DNA from: Bacillaceae bacterium IKA-2
GTDB taxonomy: Bacteria; Bacillota; Bacilli; Bacillales; Anaerobacillaceae
DNA length: 64,000 nt
NCBI GenBank assembly: GCA_031761875.1
Contig: CP134492.1
Location: forward strand, 2,480,001 to 2,544,000
Direction: 5' to 3'
Under the pieces are notes generated by a model. It was not told where the DNA came from and ran no database searches. It worked only from the letters and a program-made list of their open reading frames with translations. Within the stretch, counting starts at the first letter, position 1. Each line of letters begins with the position of its first letter. Shown here one piece after another: positions 5,629 through 13,236 of the stretch. Made by a program: the position numbers and the translations under genes.

Positions 5629-5821
5629 TTAATCATTAATCTCACTTTCATCAACAATTCCTGAGTATATAATATGGTGGTACGTGTTCCCATCATGCTC
5701 GTATGCTGTGTAAGGAACAATATGATTGTATTTATTCGTATATTTCTCAACAGGTTGAAATTGTGCAATGGCATCTGATTCACTATACTCATTTACTGGA
5801 AAAAAAAGATAATCGTACATA
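5629..5821 (-). pseudogene. 3' part of a small gene split by the IS21 element
   Basis: Codes for YDYLFFPVNEYSESDAIAQF and on to a stop at 5629. The 5' end is cut at 5821 by the IS. Removing the IS and one copy of the ACATA duplication joins it in frame to 11713-11871, giving ...AKRLGRPDM-YDYLFFPV.... An ATG at 5820 exists, but no ribosome binding site precedes it. The protein family is not recognised. Confidence 0.6.
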
Positions 5822-5935
5822 TGTTTATGATACTCTAAAAGTGGCCCATTAATAGAATAATATCAATTGAAAAACGGTCCAGTACTTTAACACTAATCTC
5901 TTACTGTTATGATGGCAGTAAAGGGGTGGGATGGA

Positions 5936-6733
5936 GTGATTGAGATAATGGACAAACATGCAATAATAAAACTAAAGCAGCAAGGTGTATCCAATAGAAA
6001 AGCTGCCAAGCTTTTAAACATCAATCGGAAAACAGTCGCAATCTATTGGAATGAGTACCAGAAGAACAATACTCTGTTGAATGCCTTAGACGTTAATAAA
6101 AAAGAAGTACAAGAAGTACAAGAAAAAATATGCGAGGCACCAAAGTATAATGCTCAAAATAGAAAGCCAAGAAAGTACACAGCAGAAATCGATACCAGAT
6201 TAGACGAAATCCTAGAGAGTGAATCTGAAAAGTGTAAAGAGTTAGGTCGACATAAACAACAGCTGACTAATTTGCAAATTCACCAAATGCTAGTCAATGA
6301 AAAGTTTGATATTGGATATACAACTATTACAAATAAAATCAGAGAAAAAAGAAACAAACCTAAGGAATGCTTTATTAAACAATCATATGATTTAGGGCAA
6401 AGACTTGAATATGATTTTGGCGAAGTGAAGTTAGAAATAAACGGGGAGATCAATACCTATCATCTAGCTGTACTATCTTCACCAGCTGCTGATTTCAGAT
6501 GGGCGTATTTATATAAGAATCAAAAGCAAGACGTCTTTATGGATTCTCATGTGCGTTTCTTCGATATGTTAGGTGGCGTTTATTCAGAGATTGTGTACGA
6601 CAATATGAGAAATGTAGTATCAAAATTCATAGGTAAAACTGAAAAAGTCCTCAATGAGAATTTGCTAAAATTGTCACTCTACTACGGATTCGATATCAAC
6701 GTCACTAATTGTTTCAGTGGAAACGAGAAGGGT
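5936..6733 (+). pseudogene. istA: istA transposase, 5' part
   Basis: IstA is the DDE transposase of IS21. This part has the N-terminal helix-turn-helix (SNRKAAKLLNINRKTVAIYW) and the first catalytic region (RLEYDFGEVKLEI; YDNMRNVV). The start is taken as GTG 5936 because AAGGGGTGG lies 8 nt upstream; ATG 5948 is an alternative. The frame is broken after the GGT codon at 6731-6733 by the RIT element and reopens at CAT 10234. The two parts together make 493 codons (NEKG-HVEGSVKII), so the gene is interrupted but not decayed. Confidence 0.9.
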
Positions 6734-6776
6734 AATGAAAAGTATATGATAATGTAAAGTAAGGCTGTTAGATAAC
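6726..6776 (+). repeat. RIT left inverted repeat
   Basis: 51 bp, from AGAAGGGT through TATATGATAATGTAAAGTAA to GATAAC. It is the reverse complement of 10157-10207 with one mismatch seen. Its first 8 bp are the target-derived AGAAGGGT core. Confidence 0.85.
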
Positions 6777-6821
6777 TATAAACAAAGTGATTCTAGTTGT
6801 TTTACTTTACATTTTCAATGG

Positions 6822-6861
6822 CTATATTTAATATAGGCGAGGTCGCCTACGTTAAATATAG
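6822..6861. promoter_or_regulatory. long hairpin before the RIT recombinase operon
   Basis: CTATATTTAA..TATAGGCGA and TCGCCTA..TTAAATATAG form an about 19-bp stem with a 2-nt loop. The ribosome binding site AGGAGG follows directly on the 3' arm, so the fold could limit translation of the first recombinase or stop read-through from istA. That role is inferred. Confidence 0.5.
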
Positions 6862-6873
6862 GAGGTTATGATT

Positions 6874-8121
6874 ATGGAACAAAAATATCAAACATTTGAA
6901 CAACTGTCCTCAGAAGTAGTTAAATCCCTTCGGGATATGTCCTATTCCGAATCAAGGATAAGCCAATATCGTTCCGCGTGGCAAAAACTGGCTACTTTTA
7001 TGGAAAACAATCAGATTGAGTATTATTCAGCGTCAGTAGGTGGAGCATTTATAGCTGACTTTATTGGTACTGGGAAATACGAGGAATTTAGCCATTGGGA
7101 AAAGAGCATAATCCGGTGTGTGGATGTTCTAACTGAATTTCAGTCTACAGGAACGTTCCAATACAGAAGGGCAAAGAAATCCTACCAATTTTATGGTTGC
7201 ATCGGTAATCCTATGGTGGATTTCCTTAATCACCGAAAATCTTTGGGTATTACAGAAAATACGCTTGGTCATTACCGATTAAATCTTCATCGCTTTCTTA
7301 GTTTTTTTAATGAAGAAGGAGTCATGGAAACCGAAGCAATTAAAAAACAACACATTTTAGGATTTGTGAATCAGCTTGGTTTTTATACACCTGCAACGCG
7401 CCACAGCATGCTTACCACTTTACGTGGGTTTATGAGATATCTACATGACAATGGGTATACAGGGATTGACTTTTCATACCTAATTCCAAAAGACAATTAC
7501 AAGAAGCAATGTAAACTACCCACGACATATACGAAAAATGAAGTTGAATCATTAATCAATACTGTTGACAGAAGTAGCCCAAAAGGGAAGCGTGATGCTG
7601 CTATGATACTATTGGCTGCACGATTGGGATTGAGGGCTTCTGACATCTGTCTGTTGAAGTTTGAAAACATACACTGGGAAAAGAATACAATTACACTTGT
7701 TCAACAAAAGACTAAAAATAAGATTGAGCATCCACTTTTAATAGAAATAGGAGAGGCTATTATCGATTATCTGAAGTATGGACGGCCTAAATCTGATCTT
7801 CCTTATGTCTTCCTACATGCAATCCCGCCATATAACTGCCTAAATAGATCGACTTTGCATAGCATTGTTACTTTTTATCTCCGTCGTGCTGGCATTAAAA
7901 ACATAACAGAAAAGAAACATGGTCCTCATGCTTTGAGGCACAGTCTTGCTGGGCAACTACTGGAACAAAAAATACCCATCCATGTTATATCAGAAGTGCT
8001 AGGTCACAAGAATACCGAAAGCACAAAAACTTATTTACGAATAGACTTAACATCTTTGAGCCAATGCGCATTAGATGTTCCACTCTTAAAAACGCCATTT
8101 TATGCCAAGGAGGTGGAATGA
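6874..8121 (+). CDS. tyrosine recombinase A of the RIT element
   Basis: 415 residues from ATG 6874, chosen because AGGAGG lies 8 nt upstream (ATG 6868 is only 2 nt from it). It has a long SAM-like core-binding N-terminus and a catalytic C-terminal domain with the Arg of RLGLRASD, the HALRH box (H-x-x-R), LGHKN and the nucleophile Tyr in TKTYLRID. All catalytic residues are present. It probably makes strand cuts and joins at the element ends together with recombinases B and C. Its TGA overlaps the ATG of B (ATGA). Confidence 0.9.
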   Translation: MEQKYQTFEQLSSEVVKSLRDMSYSESRISQYRSAWQKLATFMENNQIEYYSASVGGAFIADFIGTGKYEEFSHWEKSIIRCVDVLTEFQSTGTFQYRRAKKSYQFYGCIGNPMVDFLNHRKSLGITENTLGHYRLNLHRFLSFFNEEGVMETEAIKKQHILGFVNQLGFYTPATRHSMLTTLRGFMRYLHDNGYTGIDFSYLIPKDNYKKQCKLPTTYTKNEVESLINTVDRSSPKGKRDAAMILLAARLGLRASDICLLKFENIHWEKNTITLVQQKTKNKIEHPLLIEIGEAIIDYLKYGRPKSDLPYVFLHAIPPYNCLNRSTLHSIVTFYLRRAGIKNITEKKHGPHALRHSLAGQLLEQKIPIHVISEVLGHKNTESTKTYLRIDLTSLSQCALDVPLLKTPFYAKEVE

Positions 8122-9092
8122 TGCCGAACTATTGTGGTATTTATGCTGGTTTAATCGAACAGTACATTGATTTCAAAAGAAACCTCGGTTACAAGTTTGT
8201 TGATGCCACTTACACACTTTCGTTATTTGACAGATTTACAATAGATAATGCCGTATTAAAACTCGGTCTATCAAAGGAGATTGTTGATAAATGGAGTGAG
8301 AAGCGTCCAAATGAATCAGACAAGACACGTTATGCGAGGATTCATTATATTGCAAAATTTTCCGCCTATTTAAATGATATGGGATATCCATCACATATAC
8401 CGAGATTGCCTAAAAAGTACAGCAGTACGTTTGTACCACATATTTTCTCGAAAAAGGAAGTGAATGCATTCTTCGATGCATGTGATACGCTTAAAGTTAA
8501 TAGACGATTTGAAACAACTGTGTATGTACTCCCCGCTTTATTTAGAATGCTATATGGCTGTGGCATCCGTATCAGCGAAGCGTTATCCCTAACATGTAAG
8601 GATGTTGATCTTGATGCAAAAAATATTATTGTCAGGGAAACGAAAAACGGCAAAGACCGAATACTCCCATTATCTGAAACACTAACTGAGGTGTGTATTC
8701 AATATAGGAATGTTCGTCCCGGCAAATATGAACCGAAAGGTTATTTTTTTATCAAGAACAATGGGCAAAAATGTAATGCCAAGGCAATATATGAATGGTT
8801 CAGAAAAATACTCTGGAATGCAGGAATTCCACATGGTGGGAAGGGTTTTGGCCCAAGAATGCATGACTTTCGTCACACTTTCAGTGTACACTCTCTTGTG
8901 AAAATGTCAGAAGCTGGGCTAGATTTATACTACTCACTCCCAATATTATCAAAATATCTTGGGCATCAGTCATTAGAGGCTACAGATAAGTATGTAAGGC
9001 TAACATCTGACATGTACCCTGATTTAATTAGAGAAGTAGATAACGTTTGTGCCTATGTATTTCCGGAGGTTGACCATTATGAAGCCGACTGA
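8118..9092 (+). CDS. tyrosine recombinase B of the RIT element
   Basis: 324 residues; start ATG 8118 inside the ATGA overlap with A, behind AAGGAGG (ATG 8121 is equally possible). The catalytic domain shows R in YGCGIRISEAL, the HDFRHTF box, YLGHQS and Tyr in TDKYVRLT. The N-terminal part (ECYIDFKRNLGYKF-like EQYIDFKRNLGYKF) is a core-binding domain. Shorter than A, as usual for the middle protein of a trio. Translational coupling on both sides implies fixed ratios of the three proteins. Confidence 0.9.
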   Translation: MMPNYCGIYAGLIEQYIDFKRNLGYKFVDATYTLSLFDRFTIDNAVLKLGLSKEIVDKWSEKRPNESDKTRYARIHYIAKFSAYLNDMGYPSHIPRLPKKYSSTFVPHIFSKKEVNAFFDACDTLKVNRRFETTVYVLPALFRMLYGCGIRISEALSLTCKDVDLDAKNIIVRETKNGKDRILPLSETLTEVCIQYRNVRPGKYEPKGYFFIKNNGQKCNAKAIYEWFRKILWNAGIPHGGKGFGPRMHDFRHTFSVHSLVKMSEAGLDLYYSLPILSKYLGHQSLEATDKYVRLTSDMYPDLIREVDNVCAYVFPEVDHYEAD

Positions 9093-10098
9093 TTTCTCTC
9101 GCTATCTGACAGGATTTCTTACAAAATACCTGCCAGGAGAAATGGGGTTCAGTATAAATACGATTGCCTCTTATAGAGACACATTTGTACTTTTCCTTAC
9201 ATTTATCAAGGATAAAAAAGGAATAAAAACAAATTCTCTGACGCTGGGCATGATTAATAAGGAAATGGTTATTCACTTTCTTGACTGGATAGAAACAGAG
9301 CGTGGCTGTAGTACAGCCACAAGGAACGTCCGCCTTGCGGCATTACACTCTTTCTTCCAATATCTCCAGTATCAGAGCCCCGATAATCTTTTGGAATGGC
9401 AGAGAATCCTTGGAATCCGGGTTAAGAAAACAGAAACAAAATCAATCAGTTACCTAACGCTTAATGGGATCAGACTACTTTTGGAAATGCCTGATCAGTC
9501 AACTAAAATAGGACGAAGAGATCTTGCTCTTTTGTCAATTATGTATGAAAGCGGTGGAAGAGTACAGGAAATCATTGACCTCACTCCGTCACAAGTACGT
9601 TTTGACAGACCATGTACTGTAAAGTTAATTGGTAAGGGGAATAAAGCCCGGATAGTCCCTCTGATGGATGCTCCGTTAGATTTATTAAATCGATATATGG
9701 ATGAGCAGGGGCTGTTAAGTTTGTCAGCAAACATGTACCCATTGTTCTGTAACAAAAGAGGAGAAAAACTGACCCGGGCAGGGGTGAATTACATACTAGA
9801 TAAATATGCACGCAAGGCTCGTATTAAAGATCAAATATTAATCCCAGAACGATTTAGCTGTCATTGTCTGAGACATTCAAAAGCTATGCACTTACTCCAA
9901 GCAGGAGTTAATCTCATATACATCCGTGATATACTAGGTCACCGTTCTGTCCAAACAACTGAAATTTACGCTAAGGTAGATTCAAAACAAAAAAGAGAAG
10001 CAATTGAAAAAGCATATACAGATGTTGTACCAAAAGGTGCACCTTCTTGGCAAAAAAGTGGAGATTTATTGGAATGGCTAAAAAGATTTGATAAATAA
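9079..10098 (+). CDS. tyrosine recombinase C of the RIT element
   Basis: 339 residues from ATG 9079 (CCGGAGGT upstream), overlapping B by 14 bp. It has R in YESGGRVQEI, the HCLRHSK box, ILGHRS and Tyr in TEIYAKVD. All catalytic residues are retained. About 60 bp after its stop the right terminal region begins, with no further gene. The C-terminal tail (after residue 310) is rich in Lys/Trp and might contact the other two recombinases. Confidence 0.9.
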   Translation: MKPTDFSRYLTGFLTKYLPGEMGFSINTIASYRDTFVLFLTFIKDKKGIKTNSLTLGMINKEMVIHFLDWIETERGCSTATRNVRLAALHSFFQYLQYQSPDNLLEWQRILGIRVKKTETKSISYLTLNGIRLLLEMPDQSTKIGRRDLALLSIMYESGGRVQEIIDLTPSQVRFDRPCTVKLIGKGNKARIVPLMDAPLDLLNRYMDEQGLLSLSANMYPLFCNKRGEKLTRAGVNYILDKYARKARIKDQILIPERFSCHCLRHSKAMHLLQAGVNLIYIRDILGHRSVQTTEIYAKVDSKQKREAIEKAYTDVVPKGAPSWQKSGDLLEWLKRFDK

Positions 10099-10156
10099 AA
10101 TAGTGTTTGCGTTGCAGATAATGTAAAGTAAAACAGCGAGGGATCCTTTACTTACG

Positions 10157-10207
10157 GTTATTTAACAGCCTTACTTTACATTATCATATACTTTTCATTA
10201 CCCTTCT
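10157..10207 (-). repeat. RIT right inverted repeat
   Basis: Partner of 6726-6776. Unlike the left copy it is not at the junction: 26 more base pairs, forming a palindrome, separate it from the istA sequence. Confidence 0.85.
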
Positions 10208-10233
10208 AATGTAAAGCTTTGCATTAGAAGGGT
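10200..10233. repeat. palindrome at the RIT right junction
   Basis: Arms ACCCTTCTAATG and CATTAGAAGGGT with a 10-nt centre (TAAAGCTTTG, itself symmetric). It contains an inverted and a direct copy of the AGAAGGGT core. Probably part of the recombination site. Confidence 0.7.
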
Positions 10234-10914
10234 CATGTGGAGGGCAGCGTGAAGATAATTAGGAACAAAGCATTTGCGTTAACTTATAAGTTTAAGACAT
10301 TCGATGATGCACGTGAATACTTGAATACTATATTGATAGAACTCAATAAAGACAGCACTATTTCTGAAGAAATAAAACATCTTCAACCTACAAAACCAAA
10401 GCTTGATCTTGCAACAGTTACAGTGCAAAAACCAAATAAATATAGTTTTGTACGAGTTGATAACAACCACTATTCAGTACCGGAGTATCTTGTAGGACGC
10501 TTAATAACAATCAAGAAATATTACGACACAATAGGCTTTTATTCAAACAACATACTCGTTTGTGAACACAAAAAAATAGATGGTACTAACGAGATAAGTA
10601 TTAAAATTAAACATTACTTAAACTCATTAAACAAAAAACCAGGTGCAATCAAGAACTCCCACGCTCTAAAAAGCATACCAAGGTTAAAAGCCATCTATGA
10701 TACTAATTTTAGCAGAAACAAGAAAAAATTCATAGAGATCATTCAAGAAAATGATGATAAACCAATCGAAGAAATACTATTGATTCTAGAAACATACAAT
10801 AAATCTCATATCGATATTATTCCATCTATGCACATAGATAAAACTGCACTTAGCAACATCGCTACAAGGCAAGTATCTAGATATAACGAATTATGTTTCT
10901 CGGAGGTGGAATAA
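10234..10914 (+). pseudogene. istA: istA transposase, 3' part
   Basis: Continues istA in frame after the RIT element (HVEGSVKIIRNKAF). It holds the rest of the catalytic domain, the TFDDAREYLN region after the last acidic residue, and the C-terminal DNA-contact domain. Its own GTG at 10237 is unlikely to be used, as no ribosome binding site precedes it. The end meets istB directly: the TAA is followed at once by the istB ATG. Confidence 0.88.
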
Positions 10915-11661
10915 ATGCAAATACAAGAAATGGCCCATATACTAAAATTACCCTATATAAAAACCAATTATCAAATGCTTCTTGATGAAGCAAACCATAC
11001 AAACATGACCCACCGAGAGCTGATAAGTCGTCTACTCGAAAGAGAATTAGAACTAAGGCTTGAGAATGGTTTAAAACATAGACTCAGAAGGGCTAAATTC
11101 CCTCTTAACAAGTACTTAGAAGACTTCGACAAGAGTAAGTACCATAAGAAATTTATACCGAAATTCGAAGAACTAGAAACGTTGCAGTTCATTGAAAATA
11201 AAGAAAATATAATCTTAATAGGATCTCCTGGCTGCGGGAAATCACATTATAGTATTGGGCTTGGTATTAAGGCGTGTTTGGAAGGCAAAAGTGTATTGTT
11301 TATCTCTGTACCTAACTTAATAATAGAGTTAAAAGAAGCAATGAGTGAAAGCAAACTATCGCAATATAAAACCAAATTTGAAAAGTACAGTCTTGTCGTT
11401 TTAGATGAACTGGGATACGTATCATTTGACAAAATTGGTTGTGAAATACTATTTAATTTATTATCAAATAGAAACGATAAAGGATCAATAATCATAACAA
11501 CAAACTTGGCTTTTGATCGCTGGGAAGAGATTTTTAAAGACCCGATGCTTACTGGTGCAATTGTAGATAGACTTGCTCACAAATCACATATCTTAGATAT
11601 TTCACGAGAAGTAAGTCACCGATTTGAAGAGACAATGTCATGGCTAAAACCAACTAAATAA
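10915..11661 (+). CDS. istB: IstB, IS21 transposition helper ATPase
   Basis: 248 residues, AAA+ ATPase of the IstB/DnaC type: N-terminal helical part (1-90), Walker A IGSPGCGKS (about 101-109), Walker B LVVLDELGY, sensor Thr/Asn in IITTNLAFDRW and Arg finger region GAIVDRLAH. It activates IstA at the target. SD CGGAGGTGG ends 8 nt before the ATG. The gene is intact, but without a continuous istA it cannot act here. It might serve other IS21 copies. Confidence 0.92.
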   Translation: MQIQEMAHILKLPYIKTNYQMLLDEANHTNMTHRELISRLLERELELRLENGLKHRLRRAKFPLNKYLEDFDKSKYHKKFIPKFEELETLQFIENKENIILIGSPGCGKSHYSIGLGIKACLEGKSVLFISVPNLIIELKEAMSESKLSQYKTKFEKYSLVVLDELGYVSFDKIGCEILFNLLSNRNDKGSIIITTNLAFDRWEEIFKDPMLTGAIVDRLAHKSHILDISREVSHRFEETMSWLKPTK

Positions 11662-11712
11662 GTGGACCTTTTTTCAACTGATTCGTGGACCGCTTTTGAG
11701 TTGACAAATACA

Positions 11713-11871
11713 ACATATCGGGCCGCCCAAGACGTTTGGCACTTATTACATGATATTTCACGTTTACAACACTCCTTCCACTAAACTGCTTCATCATATT
11801 TATGAACTCTTCACAAAATCTTCTAAAATGAATAGCTTTGCTGCGTAACGGCTGCTTGTTTTAAATAGTGA
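11713..11871 (-). pseudogene. 5' part of the gene split by the IS21 element
   Basis: The minus-strand frame codes for about 50 residues (...QPLRSKAIHFRRF, NVKYHVISAKRLGRPDM) and continues in frame into 5629-5821 once the IS and one ACATA are removed. A TAA at its upstream end shows that the start was already lost, so the gene was probably decaying before the insertion. Family not recognised. Confidence 0.5.
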
Positions 11872-12046: not shown

Positions 12047-13236
12047 TTATTTTACTGGGATTACAATCTCATTAAATCTATTTCTCGCCTTGGTTTGAAA
12101 TTCCTCAAATTCTTCAAAATCAAACTCTTGATTATGCTCTATGAAGAAATTATCCCCTCCTACATTTATATTACTTATAAACGCATTGTCTATAGGAAAG
12201 TTTAATACAGGCATATTCCGATTTCGTAACTCCAAATATTTCTCCGAAGATAAACCCAAACCTTCCCTAACTGACTTCGTATTTGTAAAAAAACTCTATA
12301 GTGAAGTCAGAGGGCATAATCCTTGTGACCTTTTCCGACATCATGGCTATTACAACTGCTTGTATTTCTGTATTTTTTAGTATATGAGCCTGTGATAAAA
12401 TTCCATCTACTTTTCGTTTATCAATATATCTACTTTTCGTAACATCTAAAACCGCAGGTAGTCTTTTTTCAAATTTTATAAAATAGTCATAAGCATCTTT
12501 ATAAATATTTGTTCATTTATATTTCTCTATGTTTTTGATGCCAACGTATTTTTCAATAAATTCGCTTGAAAAAGCATCTGACATAAATACCTCTGTTCGT
12601 GAATAGATTTCTTCATCCATTAATAATACAGGTAAAGGATCAATACACAGTCTGAATACTGTTATTGTACTGATACATCGTTCTAAGAAAAACTCAAACT
12701 CTTCAATGATAGGAGTTTGATTTCTTTCTTTATTAAAAAATGGTTTCTAGAAACATAAAAAGTATTAAATCCTTGCTTATGAACATATTTATTGAGGTGT
12801 TTCTTTGTTCGTTCCATTTCATCAAAGTAATCGGTCATTATTTCTTTTACATCCGAAAATATTGCCATTTGCTTTTCTAATAATTCAATCATAGCCTTAT
12901 ACATCGGAAATCTGCTCTTTTCCTTCCATTTTAGGAGTTCTTTTTCTCTTTTATCTCCTTCAAGATCCGATAAATAGACCATTATAAGTGCGGTTTCAAG
13001 TGATTGTCTTAAAGAGTAATAAGCGCTATCAAAATATCCTTTTTCAAATAATGATATAGCATTTGTAATTAATTGCACCGATTCCATAAAAAAAGTATTA
13101 GCTATTTGAAAAATATTAACCCTACTTACAAAGCTATTTTAAACTGAAACAAATCAAAAAAATAATCTTTTTTACTTGGTATTTCTAGGGGTATTAAATT
13201 TCTTTTTTCTTGTTGTTCAAAAAAGTTAAATTCCAT
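12047..13236 (-). pseudogene. decayed gene of about 390 codons, HEPN-like N-terminal half
   Basis: Opens at ATG 13236 behind GAGGGGATCT (MEFNFFEQQEKRNLIPLEIP). A frameshift near 13125 leads to the longest open part (12683-13087), with LFEKGYFDSAYYSLRQSLE. A second frameshift near 12740 leads to TPIIEEFEFFLERCISTI, then an internal TGA near 12510 and further shifts to a stop at 12047. The helical SAYYSLRQSLE...KKHLNKYVH pattern resembles HEPN-type proteins common in abortive-infection systems. That is only a fold-level impression. Confidence 0.6.

Follow-up and report, generated by a model that had tools for sequence, protein, structure and literature searches.

We analysed a recombinase in trio (RIT) element inserted in an IS21-family insertion sequence of Bacillaceae bacterium IKA-2. 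The DNA examined was a stretch of 64,000 nucleotides (positions 2,480,001 to 2,544,000 of contig CP134492.1), referred to here as the window, and coordinates are positions within it unless otherwise indicated. RIT elements were described in 2009–2010 and have been little studied. The IS21-family element lies on the plus strand at 5822–11712, has TG...CA ends and is flanked by the 5-bp duplication ACATA (5817–5821 and 11713–11717), exactly as described in an original prediction made from the window sequence. Its transposase gene, istA, is in two plus-strand parts: a 5′ part (5909–6732) that breaks off three residues ahead of the catalytic glutamate, and a 3′ part (10233–10914) that starts HVEG and contains this glutamate. 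The gene for the helper ATPase of the AAA+ class, istB (10915–11661, plus strand), is open and full length. IstB matches NF038214 above the cut-off; the broken istA piece scored 130.6 bits against NF033546, under the cut-off of 160.

The RIT element between the two parts of istA has an inner segment of 3468 bp (6733–10200, plus strand), bounded by terminal inverted repeats that are 88% identical across 92 aligned columns, cores counted in. It carries three adjacent plus-strand tyrosine recombinase genes with short overlaps: ritA (6868–8121; 417 aa as listed), ritB (8118–9092; start placed at the ATGA overlap with ritA, which was read by eye, the listed open reading frame being 8064–9092) and ritC (9049–10098; listed from a GTG, although a later ATG may be the start). 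No other open reading frame of at least 60 aa was found within the element. All three products match Pfam Phage_integrase (PF00589; E = 8.3e-33, 1.1e-26 and 3.8e-31), and the catalytic R, HxxR, H and Y that had been reported in each could be read by eye from the translations. The best NCBIfam match of RitC is XerD (4e-55, under its cut-off). A 6-bp sequence, GAAGGG, which we take as the crossover core, is present three times: as a far core at the left junction (6727–6732, plus strand, inside AGAAGGGT at 6726–6733), as an inverted inner core inside the right end (10201–10206, CCCTTC, or GAAGGG on the minus strand), and as an outer core (10227–10232, plus strand, inside AGAAGGGT at 10226–10233). 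Inner and outer cores are separated by a 20-bp palindrome, TAATGTAAAGCTTTGCATTA (10207–10226), which is part of the element. The inverted core, the palindrome and all the RIT copies outside the window had escaped the original prediction.

The genome is a single contig of 4,424,890 bp. Sequence searches found 20 left RIT ends at full identity and 20 right ends (the left-end search returned 40 rows, the other 20 being cross-matches to the terminal repeat at 88%), together with 21 left and 23 right parts of the IS21. Exact parsing resolved these into 19 complete composites, two empty IS21 copies (L132 and L133) and one right-RIT-right structure (L124). Thus all 20 RIT copies, 19 of them outside the window, sit in or between copies of one IS21. 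The original prediction had named different junctions, or the lack of an empty site, as findings that would speak against it; the RIT occupies the same istA site in 19 of 19 composites, and both empty copies carry the predicted seam with a single AGAAGGGT. The predicted rejoined istA of 493 codons is in the same frame as the istA of L132, which gives an open frame of 501 aa when read from the first ATG, and differs from it in having a later start.

The intact IstA of L132 was aligned with the IS5376 IstA structures 8q4d (E = 2.5e-7) and 8b4h (E = 3e-7). By counting along 8b4h, the glutamate of NEKGHVE is residue 233, corresponding to E233 of the DDE triad. The DDE motif of IS5376 IstA consists of D124, D187 and E233, and integration is almost abolished in catalytic-residue mutants, according to PMC10122671.

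The composites are nearly free of mutations. Seventeen match letter for letter within one of two arrangements described below, and the only divergence among the 19 is one substitution in the RIT (L113) and one 12-bp deletion in the istA 3′ part (L127), in agreement with the recent spread that had been proposed. Duplications of 5–7 bp flank the IS21 in 16 of the 19 composites and in one of the two empty copies, and all 17 (of 21 copies with both ends) are different. None was found at L114, L120, L123 or L133, nor, by eye, at L124. The left flank of L114 and the right flank of L133 share ACCATT (by eye), as if these IS21 copies had swapped flanks in a large rearrangement; when the flanks of duplication-free copies were paired, this was the single cross pair that fitted, and L120, L123, L124 and the rest stayed unpaired. 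At L124 (G000:C1:2184228-2190719) one RIT is flanked by two IS21 right halves in opposite sense, the left half corresponding to a reversed copy of one arrangement (B) and the right half to a copy of the other (A). As there are 21 left and 23 right parts, and no left-left partner, L124 is likely to be the trace of a crossover inside the RIT between A and B composites, with loss of the intervening DNA. At the DNA level, with four candidates scored per genome, weak partial matches to the whole RIT were found in 2 of 60 other genomes, and a single 36-bp match to the IS21 in 1 of 60.

The two arrangements differ in the orientation of the RIT. Eleven composites (A form) read core, inner segment, inverted core, AATGTAAAGCTTTGCATT, core. 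In the other eight (B form) the inner segment is turned round and the palindrome appears as its reverse complement, AATGCAAAGCTTTACATT, while the IS21 junctions are unchanged. In all 19 composites the inner segment and the palindrome share one sense, forward or reversed, with no mixed copies; the chance of this linkage is 1/C(19,8) = 1.3e-5, provided that the copies are independent. If only the inner segment were inverted, the palindrome would stay as it was. The joint flip fits instead with entry from a circle, because a circle with two mirror-image cores, entering by either one, would give exactly these two forms in one step. As the two orientations are exact to the cores, the recombinases are probably active, in keeping with the earlier suggestion that the RIT may still excise.

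We consider it probable that the RIT was inserted site-specifically in istA of this IS21, immediately ahead of the catalytic glutamate in the DDE motif, that a two-core circle is its mobile form, and that the cores log earlier targets. In such a circle the palindrome would lie between two mirror-image crossover sites of the type CATAA-N6-TTATG, and recombination of either one with the target core would yield the two orientations. The target core would remain at the far end of the inserted element and the donor core would end up beside the palindrome. The next circle would then take the far core with it, so that cores would come to record earlier targets.

Relatives of the element were sought for comparison. 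An earlier contig scan using one protein confirmed 0 of 55 stretches. RitB was then aligned with eight related rows, and the search with that alignment gave 80 loci, the best 80 of at least 588 confirmed stretches (593 examined). With 11 elements on 10 further stretches and the window, the survey set comprised 92 elements. It omits L174, L184 and L185, of which the last two were scanned for palindromes only; some rows are redundant, L178 and L260 being the same record and L237, L238 and L239 close copies that may represent a single element. Of the 92 loci, 61 had the joint palindrome and 42 a matching far end as well. The same scan found it in 0 of 92 ritB bodies and 3 of 92 shuffled flanks. 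The general form is core N6, TTATG...RIT...CATAA, inverted core N6, TTATGNNAAGCTTNNCATAA, core N6. Among the 42 fully parsed loci, the palindrome is on the ritC side in 24 (A) and on the ritA side in 18 (B). Eleven loci (L187, L190, L196, L204, L209, L218, L223, L231, L234, L246 and L253) are contigs of 3.43–3.49 kb with RIT terminal repeats at both ends; such contigs are typical of multi-copy elements in assemblies, so those genomes may hold multi-copy RITs.

A second genome of the same genus (G003) contains four RITs that are 99.9% identical to each other and about 40% identical to that of IKA-2 in RitB. Two different IS21s host them, and in every case the insertion is at the Walker A motif of istB; the palindrome is on the ritC side in two and on the ritA side in two. 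A 420-bp istB query detected three full-identity copies of one of these IS21s, all occupied by a RIT and with their own 6-bp duplications (AATTAA, ATGGAG and TGTATG, by eye); a fourth match, at 67%, was a different sequence. The joint was not found in a fifth, more distant RIT of this genome (L177, 35%), nor in L183.

The three cores could be compared at 39 loci. Pairwise they agree on average at 4.7–4.9 of six positions, compared with 1.3–1.7 for the six adjoining bases. All three are equal at 12 loci and not all equal at the remaining 27. When cores were read in the target frame, which was done for 27 of the 39 loci, 40 of 54 inner or outer cores kept the exact target peptide, as did 23 of 5400 random 6-mers. 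Thirty-three cores differ in DNA sequence from the far core, and in 19 of these the difference is silent. In 13 others the peptide becomes a variant present at another locus (KGGVGK, KGGTGK, KGGVAK, GAGK or ALGRK). The target motif is still legible in inner and outer cores, which therefore look like souvenirs left by earlier targets. The rule that the far core is passed on fits the path L173 to L175 to L174/L176 in G003 without conflict, and also L237 to L240 in Lachnospiraceae bacterium 3-2.

The insertion sites were located in protein families by scanning 40 flank pieces separately against Pfam (E 0.001; one scan at 0.1). Matches to IstB_IS21 break at Walker A in 7 of 9 cases, ending at profile position 102 or 104 or starting at 105–107 (L192, L193, L226, L252, L258, L173 and L179), and at Walker B, profile 161/162, in the other two (L180 and L178). 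IS66 matches end at profile 268–269 in all four cases, and two C-terminal pieces are mutually consistent. For targets of the ParA type (P-loop), the CbiA match starts at profile 12 in 5 of 5. Four families gave two cases each, both consistent: matches to rve reach the last profile position, three residues short of the junction; those to RadC begin at position 72; those to RhuM stop at 47; and those to DUF932 lie within one position of each other. Single cases were RVT_1 (L181), UPF0758_N (L199, far end missing), YpsA (L201) and AbiEii (L227). By eye, KGx(V/I)E or its remainder was recognised at L186, L222, L224 and L188, as in the window, and L212 looks like RadC. At L181 (G227) the RIT lies within a reverse transcriptase gene at GTPQGG, probably that of a group II intron, one mobile element in another. 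At L254 the RIT adjoins a LVISEKPSVAQS motif that by eye resembles topoisomerase III.

On a tree of 46 RitB rows the target labels cluster by lineage, requiring 15 changes compared with a shuffled mean of 32.9 (0 of 200 shuffles as low), although the labels were assigned partly by eye and near-copies inflate the clustering. The IstB Walker A label needs three changes, at least two of which starred branches make unavoidable, and no clustering is seen for the IstA label. Together with the fixed positions in the profiles, this suggests that target choice tracks RIT lineage and that the sites are conserved, often catalytic, motifs, many of them in genes of other mobile elements. More tentatively, RITs in general may be parasites that home into the codons of conserved-gene motifs, chiefly in the transposases of other elements, moving as a two-core circle in either sense with cores that log the last two targets; the IKA-2 genome, where 19 of 21 complete IS21 copies are filled and their transposase gene broken, would be one instance.

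Several points weigh against movement by a two-core circle that records its targets. The circle and its excision are deduced from sequence. The near-identical composites of IKA-2 may descend from one A and one B copy, in which case the linkage of inner segment and palindrome may reflect few events. The joint is missing at 31 of the 92 survey loci (12 of them contigs of 3.41–3.51 kb, about the element alone), the far end is missing or unmatched at 19 more, and at L178 and L260 the script picked the joint of a neighbouring element. Of the 33 differing cores, 14 alter the peptide, 13 to a variant known at another locus and one (L251) to none. The core rule was read from the data after the fact and in two multi-copy genomes only, and it is silent in IKA-2 since all cores there are GAAGGG. 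No Pfam family was assigned to 5 of the 40 junction pieces (L186, L205, L211, L263 and L229), and the arms of the targets are unlike the element's own arms.

The RIT could have reached its 20 positions in IKA-2 in two ways. According to the first, to which we give about an even chance, it entered a single IS21 on one occasion, after which IS21 transposition spread the composite, intact copies providing IstA in trans, and the RIT flipped once or a few times. This would account for the confinement of every RIT to copies of this IS21 and for the separate IS21 duplications around 16 composites; two intact istA copies exist that could supply the transposase, and the composite keeps an open istB. 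Copies lacking a working istA nevertheless outnumber intact ones by 19 to 2, at least one flip is needed to explain the two orientations, and no marker separates this history from the second. In the second, whose probability we put somewhat short of even, the empty IS21 spread first and the RIT then entered each copy later, being copied into nearly all of them by either core at random. It is consistent with the occupation of 19 of 21 complete copies, with the orientation split of 11 to 8, with the target motif being found at the DNA level only in this IS21 within the genome, and with the situation in G003, where one IS21 is filled in three of three copies and RITs lie in two different IS21s. 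It would require some 19 separate RIT insertions within a nearly mutation-free time. The genome contains 23 AARGGNCAYGTNGARGG sites, which are the 23 IS21 right parts (19 in composites, two in L124 flanking its one RIT, and two in the empty copies), and strict target choice and spread as a passenger therefore predict the same picture. Dating the RIT relative to the IS21 by substitutions had no power, with one substitution and one deletion to work with.

The original prediction had taken AGAAGGGT as a short target duplication made by RIT insertion, with gene, IS21 and RIT joined in that order at this locus. A direct repeat does flank the insert and the empty site has a single copy, but we regard this account as very improbable. 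The repeat holds a core that occurs a third time, inverted, which like the palindrome is part of the element; 42 RIT loci show the same pattern, and cores are unequal in 27 of 39, far and outer cores differing in relatives. These features rule out a RIT target duplication; the proposed order of events at this locus may still hold. The three-layer nesting that had been described is real, but it was not one local event, as 18 other complete composites carry the same insert; with 20 RIT copies in or between copies of the same IS21, the composite may have been built elsewhere and landed later in the small gene it now interrupts. Equally improbable is flipping by ordinary homologous recombination between the terminal inverted repeats without any RIT activity: the similarity of the repeats speaks for it, but the flips are exact to the cores, no chimeric repeat is seen in the letter-for-letter copies, and the palindrome flips too, which such recombination cannot explain.

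The layer outside the IS21 is a small minus-strand open frame, whose C-terminal part lies at 5629–5820 and whose upstream part lies just past 11713. The frame is open on either side of the IS21, reading ...VKYHVISAKRLGRPDM on one side and YDYLFFPV... on the other, and to that extent the interrupted gene that had been proposed stands; its 63-aa part had no match in 149 other genomes, leaving a real gene plausible. Beside the composite, at 12047–13087, short minus-strand open frames separated by gaps may be a decayed gene.

In IKA-2 one target can be seen both filled, in two orientations, and naturally empty, and from the survey comes a concrete, testable rule covering target choice, the crossover core and the joint of the circle. 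The presence of related elements at similar conserved codons in other genes suggests how RITs choose their targets. Insertion at conserved motif codons, if true, would explain how sites are found in many hosts, and core souvenirs, if true, would make past jumps readable from sequence.

The host element resembles IS5376 and other members of the IS21 family in its DDE transposase gene istA, helper ATPase gene istB, TG...CA ends and duplications of 5–7 bp, and differs in that istA is broken in 19 of 21 complete copies. The RIT itself resembles those known from Cupriavidus metallidurans CH34 and Acidithiobacillus ferrooxidans: the three tyrosine recombinase genes are adjacent and overlap, the element is about 3.5 kb long, and its ends bear an inverted repeat and a palindrome. 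Earlier papers report RITs in radC of Tn6054 and in a Tn6049-like transposon, where the transposase gene is hit, with a size close to 3,500 bp, a palindrome accompanying the inverted repeat and unproven mobility (PMC3414803), rit elements in radC and an IS66 tnpA (PMC2864759), and extra domains in RitA and RitC (PMC8138268). In a table published in 2023, RITs are entered as not tested for target specificity, for an empty site and for movement (PMC10214605). Twenty copies in one IS21 in two orientations distinguish the present case, and three 6-bp cores, a two-core joint and motif-codon insertion do not figure in the parts of the descriptions compared. Similarly, no statement of a core, orientation or motif rule was found in the literature searched, which did not extend to the main RIT paper (Ricker et al. 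2013, Plasmid).

SE elements, GInts (treated in PMC5385486) and Tn554 also carry several tyrosine recombinases. The 6-bp spacer of SEs and Tn554, which moves along with the element and marks the previous site (PMC10214605), resembles the RIT cores. These elements encode extra conserved proteins (Tfp and Srap in SEs, GinC and GinD in GInts, TnpC in Tn554) that have no counterpart in this RIT, and a two-core palindromic joint is unmentioned for them in the available text of PMC10214605. A likeness to the Xer/dif system is seen in the best match of RitC, XerD. The crossover site CATAA-N6-TTATG also looks like dif half-sites around a 6-bp core. The RIT differs from Xer/dif in that its targets are without these arms, that it has three recombinases, and that it is a mobile element rather than a system for chromosome resolution.

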